64,000 bases of DNA from Apiospora phragmitis (taxonomy: Eukaryota > Ascomycota > Sordariomycetes > Amphisphaeriales > Apiosporaceae), in contig JAQQWL010000007.1 in NCBI GenBank assembly GCA_038363925.1, positions 868,001 through 932,000 on the forward strand. The letters run 5' to 3'. This document shows, one piece after another, positions 49,122 through 61,578 of this stretch. The number at the start of each line of letters is the position of its first letter. Within the stretch, counting starts at the first letter, position 1. The position numbers and the translations under genes are program-made. The notes under the pieces are model-generated. The model saw only the letters and a list, made by a program, of their open reading frames with translations. It did not search any database and was not told where the DNA came from.

Positions 49122-50777
49122 CTACTGATAAGAGCTGTACTGCTGTGAACCCGATAGAATCCGAATTTGAGTGGCATATCCATAGGCAAACATTCGCTTG
49201 CCAATATCACGTGGGTTCACAACGAACGGAGTGGCGAGGACGAGAATGGAGAAAGTGATGCCCACGCCAGCCCCAGCTATCGCTTCGTAATCCAAACCAG
49301 CAGACACGAACTCGATTCCATCTAGTGTCGATAGCAGAGAGACTCCTACCAAGTGGCAGACAGCACCAGCAAGGAGTAGATGAACGAGCGGGACCCGAGC
49401 TTTCGTAGCCACAACGTTGGAGATGATCGATCACACGGGCGATACCACGGTGTAAGGGAGCAACCAAAGGCCAGCGCACAGCGCCGTCTTATCATCCAGC
49501 GCCTGGAATCGCTGTGGCAGATTGACAATGAGTGCGTTGAATGGAACGCCGACCATGAATGTCATCCTGAATTGTGTGTTAGCAGGTTCGCGTACAAGAT
49601 GAGAGAATGAATAAACATACAAAAAGCATTCCCACGAACGTGGTATTGGAAAAGGAGGTCCATGGGAAGATCGGTCCCGGATTCTGCCATCTCGTCACGA
49701 ATCGCTCCCACACGAGAAACCCGACCCAGCTGCAGGCCGAGAGGGCGAGGAGCGCAATGGTCCCGCCCGCATTCCATCCGAAGCGAATACTGGCCTCGAG
49801 CAGCGCTGTAACCAGCAATATAGATGCGAGAAGTAAGAGTGCTGCTCCAATGAAATCAAGCCGGCCTAGACTCGTCCAGTTCAATACTCCAGATACTGAT
49901 TCCTTGTTCTTGTTTGGTCGCTTCGCTGGGAATGCAATAAACATAAAACCGATGGCGAGAGCCCCAAAGGGAACACTGTCAAATCTCGTTAGCAACTGTC
50001 TCGGGCCGTCTGTCTGGGACTCTGGTCTGGGGTGTTCTACATGAACAGAAAGACCCATCTCCAAGAGCTGTCCTCGTTGATCAGTCCACCGACGATGGGC
50101 CCCAAGGCATTGGCCGCCGAGACCACGGCCACAGATGCACCGCTGTAAGCTGCGTACTTACTTGGGGGCACCATCTCAAACAGGATAACCACTGCGAGAG
50201 AGTAGGTACCTGCAGCGCCAACGCCTTGGAAGACACGATTGATGATTCTAGATACATTGTTAGATCTAAAAGGTTCGCAGAGAAACAGGCGGTGCCATAC
50301 AGCTGGGTCATCGTCTGCGAGGCACCGCAGCCACCTGAAAAGATGACAAACAGGGCCATGGTGGTAATAAAGACCACTTTCCGGCCGACAATGTCACTCA
50401 GCTTGGACCAGATGATCATGAAGCCTAAGGAATGAGTGAGTGTGCTTCGAAAAACGTGGCGGGTATGACATGACATACCTGTGTATGTCACTAGATATCC
50501 AGTCACAATCCAGCTGGTCTCGCTAAAGCGGTGAAGGCTGTTGGCAATCGTGACCAGAGAAGTGCCTACGATCGATACTTCGATGTTGACGAGGAAGGTC
50601 GCCAACATGATCCTAACAACGTCAGTTTAAATCAGCTGCCCGGAGGTTCGCAGCGTACGCTGCAGTCGTGAGCCACAACCGCCATCCTGAAAGGTGAGGC
50701 GATTGTGATGCACTTGATCGTTCCTGAGCTGCCTCTTATTAAGGTCTTTCAGGAGTGGCCTCTTTGGGGGTCGACAT
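49122..50777 (-). pseudogene. Decayed DHA2-type MFS transporter
   Basis: Remnant of a 14-span drug:proton antiporter. TM1 (LATFLVNIEVSIVGTSLV), FMIIWSKLSDIVGRKVVF, INRVFQGVGAAGTYSL, VPFGALAIGFMF and GLWLLPYTVVSPV are clear. The lesions are: two adjacent TAA codons (50736-50741) separating the only plausible ATG (50777) from the conserved frame; a frame mismatch at the junction of exons around 49570-49626; an in-frame TGA at 49431-49433 inside a conserved loop; and a C terminus that ends after TM12-like sequence instead of continuing to fourteen helices. It stands beside the RiPP-type genes and may once have been their exporter. Confidence 0.75.
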
Positions 50778-52500: not shown

Positions 52501-53309
52501 CTATGGAATGATTGCCCCATAATCAATGGGTTTCACACCATCGTCGCCATCTTTTCTGCAAAACCCAAAGTGGTCCTTGAGCGGGATATCCTCAACGCTA
52601 TCTCGATAGCATGCCGTGTTCTCGGCGGCCCAGGCGTGCAACTGCTCCCAGTCGCGACGTCGATGGAGCTGCCCATCGCCGGCGGTGTGGTCACCAGACC
52701 AGTACAGCGGCGTGTTGTCCGCATTGCACTGGGCGTTCTGCCGCAGAGCATCGAAGCAGTGGTCCAGGTGCGGCCCTGGACGATGCGTGAGCGGCTTCCC
52801 ATCAATTGCCTCCCAAAACGTCAATCTCATGATACGCTACACGAGTAAGACTAGTTAGTTCAACTTTTGCTTCTTGTGTAAAGTATTGGATGTATCCAAG
52901 AGGCCTACTATGCAGTGGAGCAAGTGATATGCTTCCAGGAGATACACAGCTTTCGTCTTGTCGCCGGGATAATAGCCGCTGAGCGGCCAGCCCTGCGCCT
53001 CGGCCCATTCTCGTCCCACAGGCTGTCGGCATCGGAGCGGTTGGCGGGGCTGTACGCTGTATTCCACCAGAAGCGCTTGTAAACGGTATCGAGTTTGTCG
53101 GTGCGGGCTATGTCAGATGGAGAACGCTCCCGTGGGATCCATAACGGCCAGCTCAGGGAGAAGAGGTTTGTTAACACAAGCAAAATGGCTCCGTACGTGA
53201 GCAATCGTCTTCGTGACCGTTGGTGGTGGTGGTGCGTATACGGCTCTTCCGTGGAGCACAGAGATTTTGGGCGGTCGGATACAAGCTGATATGAAGCTGT
53301 GCCAGACAT
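52501..53309 (-). CDS. UstYa/DUF3328 family protein A (frame broken once)
   Basis: UstYa-type proteins are membrane-anchored oxidases or cyclisation factors of fungal RiPP and some NRPS pathways. Exon 1 is 53309-52909, exon 2 52836-52501, with a 72-nt intron; about 245 codons. A single transmembrane helix (LLTYGAILLVLTNLFSL) follows a short polar N terminus. The two diagnostic motifs are present: HLLHC just before the intron and HLDHC after it, the latter followed by FDALRQ. Exon 1 changes frame at three G on the coding strand (53004-53006), and one additional G would make total length divisible by three; a homopolymer miscall is likely. It is divergent from the tyrosinase gene. Confidence 0.85.
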
Positions 53310-53787: not shown

Positions 53788-54977
53788 ATGCCATCGTCGA
53801 GTGAATCTGAACGCGAGGAAGATCGGACCTGCGCCGAGCCACTCGTAGAGAAGACAAACAGGGAATCCTCAGCCCCGTTCCTTGGCAGGAGGTGCGTGGG
53901 AGCAATCATCGCCGCCGTCGTACTGACAGCCGTGCTGCTCTTTCTCTGGGCTCTACGTGGCCATACCGAGCATGGCAAGATCGATTCAGGATGTAGACAG
54001 CCCGCTGTCCGTTCGCGAGTTGCGGGACCTACGCAGCCCCGAGCGCCTCGAATATCTTCGCGCAGTCAAGTGCTTATCTTCCATTCCCTCTACCGTCTGT
54101 CATGGAAGTCTTCACGACGAATTCGCATACATACACCGCAAGATCGGTGACTACTGTAAGTGTACCTACGCACCTATCTTCTCTCCCCCAACATATCTGC
54201 TGACCTCCCAAAGCGCACGAAGCAGCCCCATTCCTGCCGTGGCATCGGTACTTCATCCATATCTACGAGCAAACGTTGAAGCAGTATTGCCAGTATGAGG
54301 ACACTCTCCCGTAAGTGGTGGTCCCGTTCGAGTTCCAGATTCACCTAAATTAATGCTCCATTAGATACTGGGACTGGACGCACGACTGGGCTAATTTGAC
54401 CCAGGCACCCGTATGGAGCACCACCGAGGGCTTCGGCGCCAACGGAAACGTGCGTCTGCCCACCACCGTGGGCCACGGGCACTGTATCCAAGACGGCCCC
54501 TTCGCGGGCTTACAAGTCCAGTACTACAACGACGACTGGCACCCGCACTGCCTGTCGCGGGGCTTCCTGACGGGGGGAACTGCAAGCGCATTTCGGCGCC
54601 CAGCGACTGAACGGCACCGCCATGGCCGCCGTGCTGGGCGAATCCGATTACTACGGCTTCCTCTTGAAGCTGGAGGACGGGCCCCATGCCGCTATTCCCA
54701 TTACCGTGCGCGGCGACTTCTCCCGTTTCACCGCACCCAATGGTAAGTCGCTCCCGGCGCATCTGCCCTGCCCGTCTTGCTTGCTTACCTATCGTGGCTA
54801 GATCCAATCTTCTTCCAAGTGCGGGCGTGCGCCTACAACGGCCCATCAAGACATAATTCGTCCATCGCGGCGCAGCTCACCGATCCGCTCGAAATGGCGG
54901 GGCTGGCGCCTGATATTGCAGTCGATTCCGTCATGACCATCGCCAATGGGCTCTTGTGCTACGAATATCAAGATTGA
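53788..54977 (+). pseudogene. Membrane-anchored tyrosinase lacking CuB His-His segment
   Basis: Copper tyrosinase of the kind found in UstYa-type RiPP clusters, where it oxidises tyrosine residues. Exons 53788-54155, 54214-54310, 54365-54742 and 54802-54977, about 338 codons. An N-terminal helix (AIIAAVVLTAVLLFLWAL) would anchor it. The CuA region is present: HEAAPFLPWHRYF and YWDW, and GHGHC with PHCLSRGF lies in the first part of CuB. After DPIFF, where tyrosinases have a His-His...Asp...Trp stretch, the sequence jumps straight to a downstream segment, so about 14 codons are missing in frame. There are also two apparent +1 shifts, at a T pair (54012-54013) and at six G (54572-54577). The indels may be miscalls, but the CuB loss is not explained that way. 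Catalysis is doubtful. Confidence 0.75.
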
Positions 54978-56006: not shown

Positions 56007-57466
56007 TTATTCGCTCTCCCAGACGACCTCCAGAATAGCAAGGGCAGCTCCCCCAACCGAGACCCTGCGAACAGCCCCGAACGGGGGTCTGCCGCGCTGA
56101 ACATGTCCTGCCACTCGGCCATGGTGCGTAGCCGCGAGTTGTTTGTCGTCAACATCAGCATGTCAATGAAACTTACAATAGGTCAGTCAGTCAACGCTTG
56201 TATGCAAGCTCTCGGGCATATGGGCCATGGGGTTTCAACCTTACCAGATGGTTCGCTCGAGCGTCAGTGGCAGGGACCCAGGCGGCGGGCTCAGGCTCTC
56301 GTTCATGAGAATTCGCGACCCCCTGCGCAGCGCAGGCACTTGTGCGCGGAGAATGGCAACGACATAGTGGTCCGGCCATTCGTGGAAGACCTAGCGAAAC
56401 AGGTAGACATCGGCCGATGCGACAGGCTGCGGGGAGAAGAAATTGTATGCCTTGTATCGGATGCGGCAGTCGGTCGGCATTGGCTGCTGCTGCTTCCCGG
56501 CCGCCGCCTCCACCACGTCTGGCAGGTCCTCGACCACTAGGTTCAGTCGTGGATGGGCCTTGCTGAGCGCTCGGCTGACGTAGCCGTCGGCACCCCCAAC
56601 ATCCACCACCGTGCCGGTGCCGAGCGAGGCCCAATCGTAGCCCTCGACAAGGTGTGATTCCGCGTACCCGGGTACGACCGCCGAGTAGAACCGCATCGCC
56701 TTGCTGAACTGCTCGGCTTTGGAGGGCTGTGTCCCCAGATAGTCGAACATGGACATGTCGGTCTCGTGCGCCAATGCGAATCCCTGCCTGGCATTAGCTC
56801 TTGTGTACATGGCGCATGGTCAGATTTCCGAGCGCGGACACTCACCGTGTGGTTCGGCTCTCCATCTTTGAACCTGTCGAGCGCATCTGCCGTGTGCTTA
56901 CGAGTCAAATAAATGCACAACACGTACCCTAGCAAAGGAGCCGTAGAACTCGTCGAACGACTGGCCCACTCCAGCGCGCACAACGTCATCAGTAGCAAGC
57001 TTCTTCGATCCCGCCGAGTGCGCCACGAAGCCTTCTTGCGGCTCCGTGAAGAGTCGATGGTAGGACATGGCGAAGCGCATGATGCGGTTTACGTCGCTGG
57101 CGCGCAGGCCTGTGGCTCCCGCTAACTCGGCGAAGGAAATCGTGCCTTCCATGGGGACTTTACGGGCAATGTCATGGCGCGAGATGACTTGTAGGCTGGT
57201 GCCGTTATACTACCGGTCGGCGTGTTAGCTCCTTTCTTGCACCTCGTCAGGAGTCAAACCACCTTGGGTAGCATGCATGCGATGGGCCCTTGCAACAGGT
57301 CTAGCAGCTCTTGGAGAGCATTAATCGCAGTGCTGCGCGCACACTCTGCCTGTGATGAGAGGTTCAACGTTATGGGCCCGTTCGCGTCGAAAGACGGATG
57401 TGGTAGGTTATTCTGATCCAGATAGCTGGTGATGGTTGCCGCCAGCTGGTCGATACGTGCGACCAT
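56007..57466 (-). pseudogene. Plant-type O-methyltransferase with in-frame TAG
   Basis: S-adenosylmethionine-dependent O-methyltransferase related to fungal secondary-metabolite enzymes. The N-terminal dimerisation part starts MVARIDQLAATI (exon 57466-57263) and continues in exon 57209-56928; short and long exons follow. The SAM motif VVDVGGADGYVSRAL is intact, as is FHEWPDHY. Damage: TAG at 56391-56393 where the family has Trp just before VFHEWPD; one apparent missing base at a G run at the second donor (56927-56929); and another at five C near the C terminus (56083-56087). The indels sit in G/C runs and may be artefacts; the TAG is a substitution and is more likely real. In UstYa-type loci such an enzyme would methylate the peptide product. 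Confidence 0.75.
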
Positions 57467-57582: not shown

Positions 57583-58465
57583 TCACGATGGAGAATCGAA
57601 GATGAAACCAGATCCATTGACGATCCGCCACTGCGCCGCCCATGCCTGGACCTCGCCAAAATCGCGGCACTGCCTCCCGAACATGGTGTCGGGGTAATGG
57701 CCCGCATAGAAGGGCTCGATACCGACGTCGGCGTGGCATGTCAGGCTCTGCTGTAGGTAGTCCAAACAATGGGCAATATGTTCCGGTTCGCGCACGCCTG
57801 TCTGGTTGAACGCCTGACCGATGGAGGCAGCGTACGCGGCGTAGTATGCACGTCGAACTGTGTACTAAAAAGTGATTTCCCGGGCGGTTATGTTAGCAGA
57901 CTGATACTCCTTCGGGTCACCGCCGATCCATACTTGGAATCATGCAGCGGGCGACCGACCAGACAATGCAGTTGGTGAAAGACTCCGATCACAGAGAACT
58001 CGGGTGCCAGGGTGGGATGCTTGACGTAGCCGAGGCCGTCTACGCCAAAAGTCAGCACTTGGCATGCCTTCAGTCAGCGCAGCATTTGCTTACTTGGAAT
58101 GAGCTTGTCCCACGCCGGCTCGTGACTCCCATTAGCCGGAGAGGCAGCCTGCATATCCGGCAGGGTCATCACCTGCTGCCGCGATAGGCCAGTAACGGGC
58201 ACTGCATAATGTAATGTTACCAACATTGACCCTCCATGTGGATTGGAATGCCGCAATAGGTACTTACGAGAAGGAATGATATCGGGAAGTGTTGGTAGTT
58301 GGGTGTCCGCTGCCCCGAGCATCCAACCAGTGCCGAAGCTGAGCATACAGAGCAGCAACGTGACGGCCGCTACGAACCAACTCTTCCTCGACCAGAGGGG
58401 CTCTCGTCAGTGCCGTTCTCGAGCTTCGAGTACTGCGGGTTTGCGCCTTTGCGCCTTTGAGCCAT
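57583..58465 (-). CDS. UstYa/DUF3328 family protein B (frame broken once)
   Basis: Second UstYa-type protein of the locus. Four exons (58465-58268, 58201-58094, 58039-57960, 57864-57583), about 222 codons. A basic N terminus (MAQRRKGANPQYSKL) precedes one transmembrane helix (FVAAVTLLLCMLSFGTGWML). Both diagnostic motifs are present: HQLHC at the end of exon 3 and HIAHC in exon 4, followed by LDYLQQSL, and the C terminus has AWAAQW. All introns have GT/AG ends. In exon 1 the frame slips at four C on the coding strand (58397-58400), where one additional C would keep the frame; everything downstream is clean. The intact motifs suggest a functional gene. Confidence 0.85.
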
Positions 58466-59099
58466 TGAACGAACATGTTGAGCCCCGAGATGGACAGGAG
58501 ACAATCTTGAGCGAGGATGGTGTAAGAATGAATAAAGGCACAAAGGGCTCCCAAGAGAGGTTCACTCGTATAGTGTCAATTGAAAGTTGAACAAGAGAAC
58601 ACGAAACCAAGGGCATCATAAGGCTTAGTGGGGAGAGCCATGGTGTGAAAGGGGGAGGGGTATCTTTATCGAGACCATGGGTGTTCATGAAGCCCACGGC
58701 CGGCACTTGCAGAAACGTCGGTCTTTCTGCGGAGCGACCGCCAACTGCATATGCATATGTATGTAATCATTGGTGCAGCTTTCAAGCGGGGGGTACAACT
58801 TATTCCCGCCAGCTTGAGGCGGCGATAAGTAGCGGGATGAAATGGTTTGTCGTATGCACTTCTACTTCCACATCTGTGGTCACCCTATCATGGCCAAGTT
58901 GAAATCCGCTCGAGTCACAAGAAGTTAGGTAGCAGATCATATCAATTGCGGTGGAAGCATGATGGGTGCTATCGAGTTCTGTCGTAGTAGCACTGTTCCC
59001 AAACCCCTATCACCATCACTGCATACCCCAGGCTTCCCCTATTTGGTCCCATGCTTGGCACAGTAAAACAAGCAGCTCCTGAGAATGGAACGCCCTTCA
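58466..59099. other. Spacer between UstYa B and precursor-like gene
   Basis: 634 nt; probably the UstYa B promoter and the 3' end of the precursor-like transcript. No gene seen. Confidence 0.5.
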
Positions 59100-59208
59100 T
59101 CAATACTCATCGCCCACGGCGTTAAAGTCCACTTCTTCCGGGCTATGGATGCTTCGCTTGTATTCGTCGCCCACAGAGCTGAAGTCGACCGCATCAGGAC
59201 TCATGGTA
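59100..59208 (-). repeat. Two diverged in-frame coding repeats
   Basis: Two units of about 45 nt, separated by a short spacer, share GACTT...GTGGGCGA(C/T)GA(A/G)TA on the minus strand. Differences are mostly synonymous or conservative at the end of the unit (VGDEY identical), consistent with selection on the peptide. Confidence 0.75.
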
Positions 59209-59412
59209 TCTACCTCTCTTGTTAGCCGAGTCTCTCTCTCATTTCGCTGGGCCACTCGTACGGCTTGAACTCAGCGGTGCGGCGCTGGCAAAGGCGCCCA
59301 AGAAGAGCAAAAACGTGAAACGCACTTGGACTTGTGGTGTTGGTGGTATGAGCGAGCTGTGCTTCGAAAGAAGGAAGGATTTCGCCAAAGATAAAAACGA
59401 TTTTTGGCTCAT
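59100..59412 (-). CDS. Putative RiPP precursor peptide with two VGDEY repeats
   Basis: Small two-exon gene: exon 1 59412-59262, a 52-nt intron (59261-59210) with GTACGA donor, GCTAAC branch site and GGTAG acceptor, exon 2 59209-59100; 86 codons from the first in-frame ATG. A hydrophobic stretch FTFLLFLGAFASAAP looks like a signal peptide ending, although about 30 residues precede it, so the true start may differ. Exon 2 encodes two acidic repeats, SPDAVDFSSVGDEYKR and SPEEVDFNAVGDEY, the second ending at the stop codon. The Lys-Arg between them is a Kex2-type site. Signal, Kex2-spaced repeats and a conserved Tyr are the hallmarks of UstA-like precursors, and two UstYa genes, a tyrosinase and a methyltransferase are adjacent. 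The core is not one I know. Confidence 0.65.
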
Positions 59413-60342
59413 ATATCGATGTATCCCGTGTCGAGGATTTGGCAGGCCAAAGACCAGGTTCATATATACGCCTGCTTCAACACCCGCGCCACATAGAGAG
59501 GCCCTCCAACAATTTTGGGGGCTACGAAGACTCGAACTAGGTAACATCCCCGACACCTGTAATAATGCAAAGGACATGATCGATACCTATGCGTACCCAT
59601 TACATTAATAAGTGACTTCTTTTATCAAGTTGACTGCGCGAATTCGTCATTGCTCGAGAACTCGCATGGACAATCCAGTGATAGGCAAGAGAGGGGTAAA
59701 GCGGCATGCATGTAGTGCAGTGAGCAAGATCCTCTCTCCATGCCGCATTTTATCTGAATCGTTGTCAGCATCCGGAGAAACATCCCTACAAGTGACAAGG
59801 GGATTCACACCCAGGAAAAGCCACGAACGTTGCATGCTCAACGTCCATCCTATCATGCAATCAAACCCCGACCAGAATCCGGAGCAAGAATTCCCCTACA
59901 TTTTGTTCCACGGGCATGGACTGGAATGAAGGAAGGATGCAGAATCCTCTTGTGCAACTCATTGTATTAAGCATTGGATCCCCCAACGCCCCCATACTCC
60001 AGTCTTGGCGTCAACCAAAATAACTTACAACCCACGAAGGAGCCCGTCGAGGTTCGAGATTAGACATTTGGATATTTAGAAATCCTCCAATTGGAAATGA
60101 CTATCGGTTTTTATAAGTGTCCAAAATATCGACTATGACCAGGTCCAATCACGTCGATGTTTAAGGCCAAGTTACTTAGTCTCCCTACTTTGTTTGCTCG
60201 ACCTCGACCATCAAGCAAACACGGCATTGTCTGGCTGTCTGGTATGATTCCCCATGCACCCTATTGTACACTTGCTCATTCAGGCTTAACTAGTAGGGCT
60301 TCGGTGTCCTCGTGACGTCTTTATGCGTCTCGCTTCTCCACC
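59413..60342. other. Divergent spacer, no supported gene
   Basis: 930 nt between the precursor-like gene and the SAT4-type gene; should hold both promoters. Confidence 0.45.
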
Positions 60343-61578
60343 ATGTCACTAACGCCAGAAGAGGTCGAATACTACAAGAAGCATGCGGTGACAGCCTACA
60401 GCCATGCATCATAGCGTCAAACGCCGTCGGTCTGATTCTGGTCTACATTTCCGTGGGACTGCGTATCTGGGCTCGCAAGACGGGAAAGCTATATCTTGGC
60501 CCGGATGACTGGCTGATTGTCGCGGCCTTGGCGCCACTGTCAACGTACGCCGTTGTCGGCTGGATCCAGGTCACATTCGGCGAGGGCAAGCACATCCTCT
60601 TCGTCACCAACACGGCGGGCTTCATCCAGGGATACGTGACAGCCATCGTTGCGTACGCGATATGTGTGGTCCTGACCAAGCTCTCCATACTGTGCTTCTA
60701 CTGCCGCATCTTCTTCCCCTTGCGGAGCCTGGTGTACATATCCTGGGCCTTCGGCATCTTCATCGTGGTCTTCAACCTTGGCCTCATCTTCGTCGCGGCC
60801 TTCCAGTGCATCCCGCTATCTTCCATGTGGACGGGGGCTCCGGTAAATGCATTGAGACGCTGCCGCCGTTTACCACTCTTGGGTGAGTGTTTGCATTCGT
60901 GCGGCATCTTGGCATCTTGGCTGCATGCTAACGCGGCCAGCATCATCAATGTGGTCACCGACGTCGGTATACTAGCATTGCCCATTCGCCATATCCTCAA
61001 GCTTCGTCTGTCGATAACACGGCGGATCCAGGTTTGCAGCATCTTCTTGTTGGGTGCCGTGGTATGCGTGTTTGGCATCGTCCGCGTGGTTGCTCTGGCT
61101 CGGGCCCCGGAGGGTGACGCAAGCTGTGAGTACCGCTCTGCTTTTCACTCGATGATGCTGTCCTCCTTATTCTTTTACCCGGCTAATCTTGCCATCAGAC
61201 AACCAAGTGTGGTCCGGCGTTTGGTCGTTCTGCGAGATCGCCATTGGCATTGTGGCGGCCTGCCTGCCCACCCTTGCCGTCGTGGCTACCAAAGCGTACT
61301 TCACCAAAGTCTCGGCGACGGTTATCCACCTGCTGTCCCTCACCTTTCGTCGTTCCAATCGGAGCAGTGGCAACAACACAAGGGGTAGTGGACGCAGCAT
61401 TCGCGATCCACAGGGCGACGAAAGCCAGTTTATCCAATTGTCCGAGCAGCCCTCAGAGAGCACAAGTGCCCATTCGGCGCGCGCTAAACATCCAGATCAT
61501 GGCGATACGTCGTCATTCGTCGCTGATAGCGTGTTAGAGCGCGGCGTAAGAAGCGAGACTAGTCTTCAGGCACCCTAA
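60343..61578 (+). CDS. SAT4/rhodopsin-like fungal integral membrane protein
   Basis: Seven-helix membrane protein of the fungal SAT4-type family; function unknown, some members sit in metabolite clusters and others resemble PTH11-type receptors. Exons 60343-60882, 60941-61125 and 61199-61578, about 368 codons. Typical phrases are GLRIWARKTGKLYLGPDDWLIV, LTKLSILCFYCRIFFP, FQCIPLSSMW, SIINVVTDVGILALPI and NQVWSGVWSFCEIAIGIVAACLPTL. The C-terminal tail is Ser-rich. Two single-base gaps are apparent in exon 1, at 60387-60388 and at five G (60833-60837); one more G at each makes the total an exact multiple of three. These fit the homopolymer errors elsewhere in the window. Confidence 0.82.

Follow-up and report, generated by a model that had tools for sequence, protein, structure and literature searches.

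A candidate dikaritin-like precursor gene with VGDEY repeats beside apparently damaged cluster genes in Apiospora phragmitis

In the 64,000-nucleotide stretch of Apiospora phragmitis DNA that we analysed (hereafter the window), a small two-exon gene occupies 59325-59100 of the minus strand, or starts from an in-frame ATG at 59412. A sequence-only reading had proposed it as the precursor of a ribosomal peptide, with a signal-like segment, two VDFxxVGDEY repeats split by Lys-Arg, and UstYa and tyrosinase genes as the neighbours that such precursors have. All of these elements are present, the neighbours being two PF11807 genes and one PF00264 gene (Table 1). The intron reads GTACGAG...GCTAACAAGAGAGGTAG and joining the exons over its 52 nt gives (V)RFTFLLFLGAFASAAPLSSSHTMSPDAVDFSSVGDEYKRSIHSPEEVDFNAVGDEY followed by the stop codon. 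Because the joint is identical in the relatives P0001 (PLSSSHTMNPDAVDF) and P0002 (PLSSSHAMSPDAIDF), the 52-nt intron, which the same reading had given, is correct; a 46-nt intron was ruled out by this joint. The public models of P0003, P0005 and P0007 are longer by 17, 20 and 17 residues at this splice position and seem to keep the intron between the signal segment and the first repeat. The two VDFxxVGDEY blocks differ in seven out of ten codons, five of the changes being synonymous and two, in the xx pair, altering the amino acid. As previously noticed, the end of the repeat is identical in protein while the rest has diverged: VGDEY is kept in both blocks with three of its five codons changed, all synonymously.

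Table 1 Features of the candidate precursor gene and of the neighbouring cluster genes (positions in the window).
Feature	Coordinates	Strand	Remarks
Precursor exon 1	59262..59325	-	Hydrophobic signal-like segment RFTFLLFLGAFASAAPLSSS; GTG at the relatives' start position
Precursor intron	59210..59261	-	52 nt; branch-like CTAAC inside
Precursor exon 2	59100..59209	-	Both repeats and stop; sole match in genome
Repeat 1, VDFSSVGDEY	59160..59189	-	Followed by KR at 59154-59159
Repeat 2, VDFNAVGDEY	59103..59132	-	Stop codon directly after
UstYa-1 (PF11807)	57583..58476	-	HQLHC and HIAHC motifs intact; front frames changed
O-methyltransferase (PF00891)	56050..57466	-	In-frame TAG at 56391-56393; 5' and 3' exons and 3' end by eye
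UstQ-like tyrosinase (PF00264)	53788..54977	+	Positions 22-108 of 214 matched, 50.3 bits, over cut-off
UstYa-2 (PF11807, positions 123-220)	52501..53309	-	HLLHC and HLDHC motifs; frame change near 53010 by eye

The hydrophobic 12-mer has a mean Kyte-Doolittle value of 2.15 and is followed by Pro-Leu-Ser; the start codon ahead of it is uncertain. Met stands directly before the hydrophobic segment in all nine relatives with an N-terminus (MRF in four, MHF in two, and MRL, MQL and MRV in one each), where the window has GTG, and the public model of P0005 starts 21 residues further upstream than this Met. The ATG at 59412, which the sequence-only reading took as the start, lies 29 residues ahead of codon 59325, with no stops up to the hydrophobic segment, and a TATA-like box is found at 59468. 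A search of the genome (52.7 Mb, 19 contigs) with exon 2 returned the precursor locus as its single match. VGDEY alone occurs at chance-level frequency in this genome, since a degenerate DNA pattern for VGD(D/E)Y matched 37 sites against 31 for the reversed control; a pair of these sites within 60 bases occurs at the precursor locus only. The precursor is absent among the proteins returned for A. phragmitis in single-sequence and profile searches. Beside it, at 60312-61578 of the plus strand, is a gene for a Fungal rhodopsin-domain membrane protein (PF20684, E 1.5e-41); we know of no link between this gene and the cluster.

The single precursor sequence retrieved four relatives (E 4e-28 to 3e-14), and a profile search brought the family to 11 relatives with VGDxY repeats. 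Eight are in named fungi, Whalleya microplaca, Hypoxylon texense, Xylaria longipes, X. scruposa, Hypomontagnella monticulosa (P0004), Annulohypoxylon moriforme, Astrocystis sublimbata and Seiridium cupressi; the three further proteins are P0007, P0010 and P0011. Lineage look-up places Whalleya in the Xylariales and Seiridium in the Amphisphaeriales, as is A. phragmitis (Xylariomycetidae), and we take the remaining precursor-bearing genera to be Xylariales. The hydrophobic start is found in nine out of the 11, and the other two, P0010 and P0011, appear to be fragmentary. Tyr is the last residue in the window precursor and in all relatives except the fragment P0011, which ends in YK. The two units of the window are split by KR and the relatives have two or three units, with KR replaced once by RVR in P0002 and once by RR in P0010. 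The sequence-only reading had expected homologues of variable copy number beside UstYa genes and a conserved frame in relatives, and this is what was found, VGDxY being present in all 11 and the pairing with UstYa in four species.

This pairing was followed with UstYa-1, whose last exon gave the Pfam match (E 2.2e-14), its two other pieces being without match. For its second intron an earlier acceptor was rejected (P0012 has IPNGLGYV, and most relatives are similar). The 3' part of UstYa-1 as query returned 72 proteins, 12 of them at least 65% identical over 95-100% of the query, and one of these 12 orthologues is very probably the window's own. The remaining matches are at 49% or less, except for the partial P0029 (65% over 54%) and P0083 (75% over 22%). 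UstYa-1 is very probably the gene annotated as PG994_007239 (P0012), which matches at 94% over 95% of the query and differs in its front part and at one of the splice sites. The Hypoxylon texense precursor and UstYa-1 orthologue carry the consecutive tags Hte_000652 and Hte_000653, and the two lie on equal-sized contigs in A. moriforme (288131), H. monticulosa (85141), A. sublimbata (259493) and H. texense (9024619). The pairing is thus seen in four out of the eight named species with a precursor. For Whalleya, X. longipes, X. scruposa and Seiridium, no UstYa-1 orthologue on an equal-sized contig was found among the proteins returned. Seven species with a UstYa-1 orthologue yielded no precursor in the single-sequence and profile searches, which may reflect loss or missed annotation. 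More distant UstYa-1 relatives (37-47%) occur in the lichens Alectoria, Usnea and Pseudevernia (P0026, P0027 and P0030), presumably all Parmeliaceae. We rejected reading the UstYa mechanism from the fold: the model of the orthologue P0017 has a mean pLDDT of 69 and matched no solved structure at E <=0.001, and a sequence search returned no solved structure for UstYa up to E 1.

The O-methyltransferase gene lies between UstYa-1 and UstYa-2, and the tyrosinase and methyltransferase genes are within the same 7 kb as the precursor. About 2 kb beyond UstYa-2, at 49125-50626 of the minus strand, an MFS transporter is found in exon pieces, two out of four matching MFS_1; it is perhaps the cluster's exporter. 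A zinc-finger regulator of the PhomR kind is usual in dikaritin clusters; in the window a Zn2Cys6 gene with a Fungal_trans domain is found at about 42.9-44.1 kb, separated from UstYa-2 by more than 8 kb.

The sequence-only reading had missed that the four neighbouring enzyme genes and the precursor start look damaged. UstYa-1 orthologues run from MF through YSKL to the membrane helix in one frame, whereas the window needs three, the reading frame shifting from the MF start to the YSKLENG stretch (58432) and again from there to the membrane helix (58379). The public model of P0012 splices around this damaged front; compared with the orthologues it has a foreign start frame and has lost the membrane helix, and the PG994_007239 model is probably an artefact of annotating a damaged gene. 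In the methyltransferase, Pfam matched the middle pieces only and the piece after the stop fell below the cut-off (E 0.079). A residue stands at the place of this stop in all five own-genome paralogues showing the motif (12 loci examined, one being the window's own and six lacking the motif). The tyrosinase has two frame changes, judged by eye, and no second copper-site HHxxxD after DPIFF. In the same genome (H/L/M)HxxxD follows DPxF in 9/9 tyrosinase loci with this site, as HH in seven and as LH or MH in two (12 loci examined, three without DPxF), and the window tyrosinase is apparently non-functional. The frame change of UstYa-2 is the weakest lesion, also judged by eye, and no close paralogue for judging it was found among the own-genome UstYa motif contexts. 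Repeat-induced point mutation (RIP) was rejected as the cause of decay, RIP indices not being raised over the cluster. The decay would be recent, because UstYa-1 keeps an intact 3' part together with its introns and both HxxHC motifs, and the precursor repeats keep a mostly synonymous pattern of change.

The breaks could also be assembly errors in a working cluster whose precursor starts at ATG 59412 or at the GTG. The open frame from this ATG, the TATA-like box and the intact UstYa motifs agree with such a reading, and one of the tyrosinase frame changes coincides with six consecutive G, where sequencing errors are common. However, several genes carry lesions of different kinds, and the missing copper-B stretch is not explained by a single-base error. 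Unbroken long frames elsewhere in the window (920 and 772 codons) and in some UstYa and tyrosinase genes outside the cluster (238 and 510 aa) favour a sound assembly, a point tempered by stops inside other own-genome matches (11 out of 31 UstYa matches, UstYa-2 included, and several tyrosinase and methyltransferase matches), which may be introns. P0012 provides no independent check on assembly errors because it very probably comes from the same assembly as the window. Overall we consider a working cluster unlikely; more likely the locus in this genome is a cluster relic, the precursor surviving in other genera.

The repeats themselves were compared across the family by dividing all 12 precursors (the window's and those of the 11 relatives) into units according to the pattern xxxxx[VI]xFxx[VFM]GDxY. 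This gave 29 units; four units outside the pattern (the middle ones of P0004, P0008 and P0010 and the first of P0009) were dropped. Since the pattern itself prescribes F, G, D and Y, their invariance carries no evidence. Tyr, as part of the pattern, ends all 29 units and also two out of the four dropped ones, that is 31 out of 33 units, of which 29 were chosen by a Tyr-containing pattern. The residue x of VGDxY is E in 12 units, A in eight, T in six and V in three. It differs between species and agrees within precursors in 22/22 pairs against 6.06 in shuffles (0/20,000 as high), which ignore kinship among species that are few and related. Two dropped units are readable at x, with A in P0004 and L in P0008, and both disagree with their neighbouring units; with them included, agreement is 22/26 pairs against 6.7 in shuffles, again with 0/20,000 as high. 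None of the other 14 positions, four of them pattern-fixed, stands out. The best is position 3, with 19 pairs against 17.6 in shuffles, a value reached in 286/2000 of them; position 9 agrees in 7/22 pairs against 7.0 and position 10 in 6 against 3.8 (300/2000 shuffles). Recent duplication of whole units is disfavoured because flanking positions would then agree too, and they do not. We read the agreement at x, which had also escaped the sequence-only reading, as the outcome of selection for a single product from each precursor, x being part of that product; it would mark VGDxY as the core.

The same repeats could belong to a Kex2-processed repeat protein that releases unmodified linear peptides, for example signals, next to UstYa genes by coincidence. 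According to excerpts of PMC7329392, a DUF3328 gene lies within 15 genes for only 22% of Kex2-processed repeat proteins, which leaves room for this reading. We nevertheless regard it as improbable, since the same UstYa orthologue is paired with the precursor in four further species, Tyr ends 31 out of 33 units, 29 of them chosen by a pattern containing it, and a tyrosinase and a methyltransferase gene lie within the same 7 kb. A chance open frame, in spite of the chance-level frequency of VGDEY alone, is refuted by the repeat layout shared by 11 relatives, 10 with C-terminal Tyr, and by the joint common to P0001 and P0002.

We compared the locus with known fungal RiPP systems. Like the precursors UstA and PhomA of the dikaritins ustiloxin and phomopsin (excerpts of PMC6514808), the gene combines a signal-like segment with Kex2-spaced Tyr repeats and is accompanied by UstYa-type, tyrosinase and methyltransferase genes. 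It departs from them in its number of units, two or three against 16 or 8 (PMC6514808, excerpts), in placing Tyr last in the unit where ustiloxin and phomopsin have it first in the core (excerpts of PMC9233826), in its acidic VGDxY core, and in the lack of an S41 peptidase gene in the window; two weak S41 matches lie elsewhere in the genome. An S41 peptidase is usual in dikaritin clusters; the four-gene asperipin cluster has none in the gene list given in excerpts of PMC6514808. The asperipin-2a system (AprA/AprY) also has a UstYa-type gene beside the precursor and a core ending in Tyr (same excerpts), but its single UstYa goes with a reductase and a Tyr-rich hexapeptide, whereas here one Tyr is accompanied by two UstYa genes, a tyrosinase and a methyltransferase. 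In victorin of Cochliobolus victoriae the C-terminal Phe is reported to be cross-linked to an internal Leu (excerpts of PMC9233826), which is the geometry proposed here with Tyr; victorin differs in using Phe and in being chlorinated. A ring onto the C-terminal Tyr would combine a victorin-like layout with ustiloxin-like chemistry, a side-chain ether macrocycle being a feature of dikaritin products. Clan R1 of the lichen RiPPs likewise has a tyrosinase, and its two UstY genes flank an O-methyltransferase; it includes an FGE-sulfatase as well, and according to excerpts of PMC12048977 its authors did not find a repeat precursor. The lichen UstYa-1 relatives would fit the Clan R1 lineage, and the VGDxY precursor offers a possible template for its missing one. 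A ust-like RiPP cluster has been described in every Hypomontagnella species and in the two Hypoxylon species H. rubiginosum and H. pulicicidum (PMC8403587). It may be the VGDxY cluster; H. monticulosa carries P0004, and the available passages of that paper give no core. Two RiPP clusters are predicted in A. arundinis (excerpts of PMC10999098).

The sequence-only reading did not recognise the core, and VGDxY was not found in the papers searched. Full-text searches, whose listed matches were judged by title or by the start of the abstract, gave no description of a VGDxY precursor family; the papers listed for the core letters as a text query were unrelated by title, and "VGD" does not occur in the texts of PMC7329392 and PMC6339444, supplements aside. 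The VGDxY precursor family, its C-terminal Tyr and the one-position agreement appear to be new, and the kind of system is ordinary.

Taken together, we favour, with a probability of about 0.7, that the gene encodes the precursor of a dikaritin-like ribosomal peptide and that its cluster has decayed in A. phragmitis. Judged by its sequence, the precursor would work, or would have worked, like a dikaritin precursor, and most of the cluster features tested are present. The original proposal of a dikaritin-like precursor is thus upheld for the family, the Kex2 spacing, the conserved Tyr and the neighbours, and not for present-day production here, where the genes look damaged. For the intact relatives we infer that the precursor enters the secretory path by its signal segment and that Kex2 cuts after Lys-Arg, carboxypeptidase trimming then leaving each unit with a free Tyr at its end. 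Ring closure onto this Tyr, inside VGDxY, would fall to the UstYa-type oxidases and the tyrosinase, the partner being, as a guess, the conserved Val. The methyltransferase would methylate, and a further protease would remove the conserved SP(E/D)xVDF stretch, which we read as a recognition sequence.

More tentatively, and at less than even odds, these precursors may form a separate dikaritin branch in the Xylariomycetidae, perhaps extending to lichens through Clan R1. Such a branch would build a ring onto the C-terminal Tyr of V-G-D-x-Y and make one variant per species. Selection on the product would keep x identical across the repeats of a precursor, with drift in the recognition sequence around it, and x would then be a one-letter code of the species' compound.

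In A. phragmitis the precursor is a short gene missed by annotation, in a cluster apparently caught in the middle of its decay. The agreement of repeats at one position is a way to separate core from recognition sequence by genomes alone. The core, gene neighbourhood and hosts now assigned to the family point chemists to the species to examine, Hypoxylon texense, Annulohypoxylon, Hypomontagnella and Astrocystis, and to the masses to expect.
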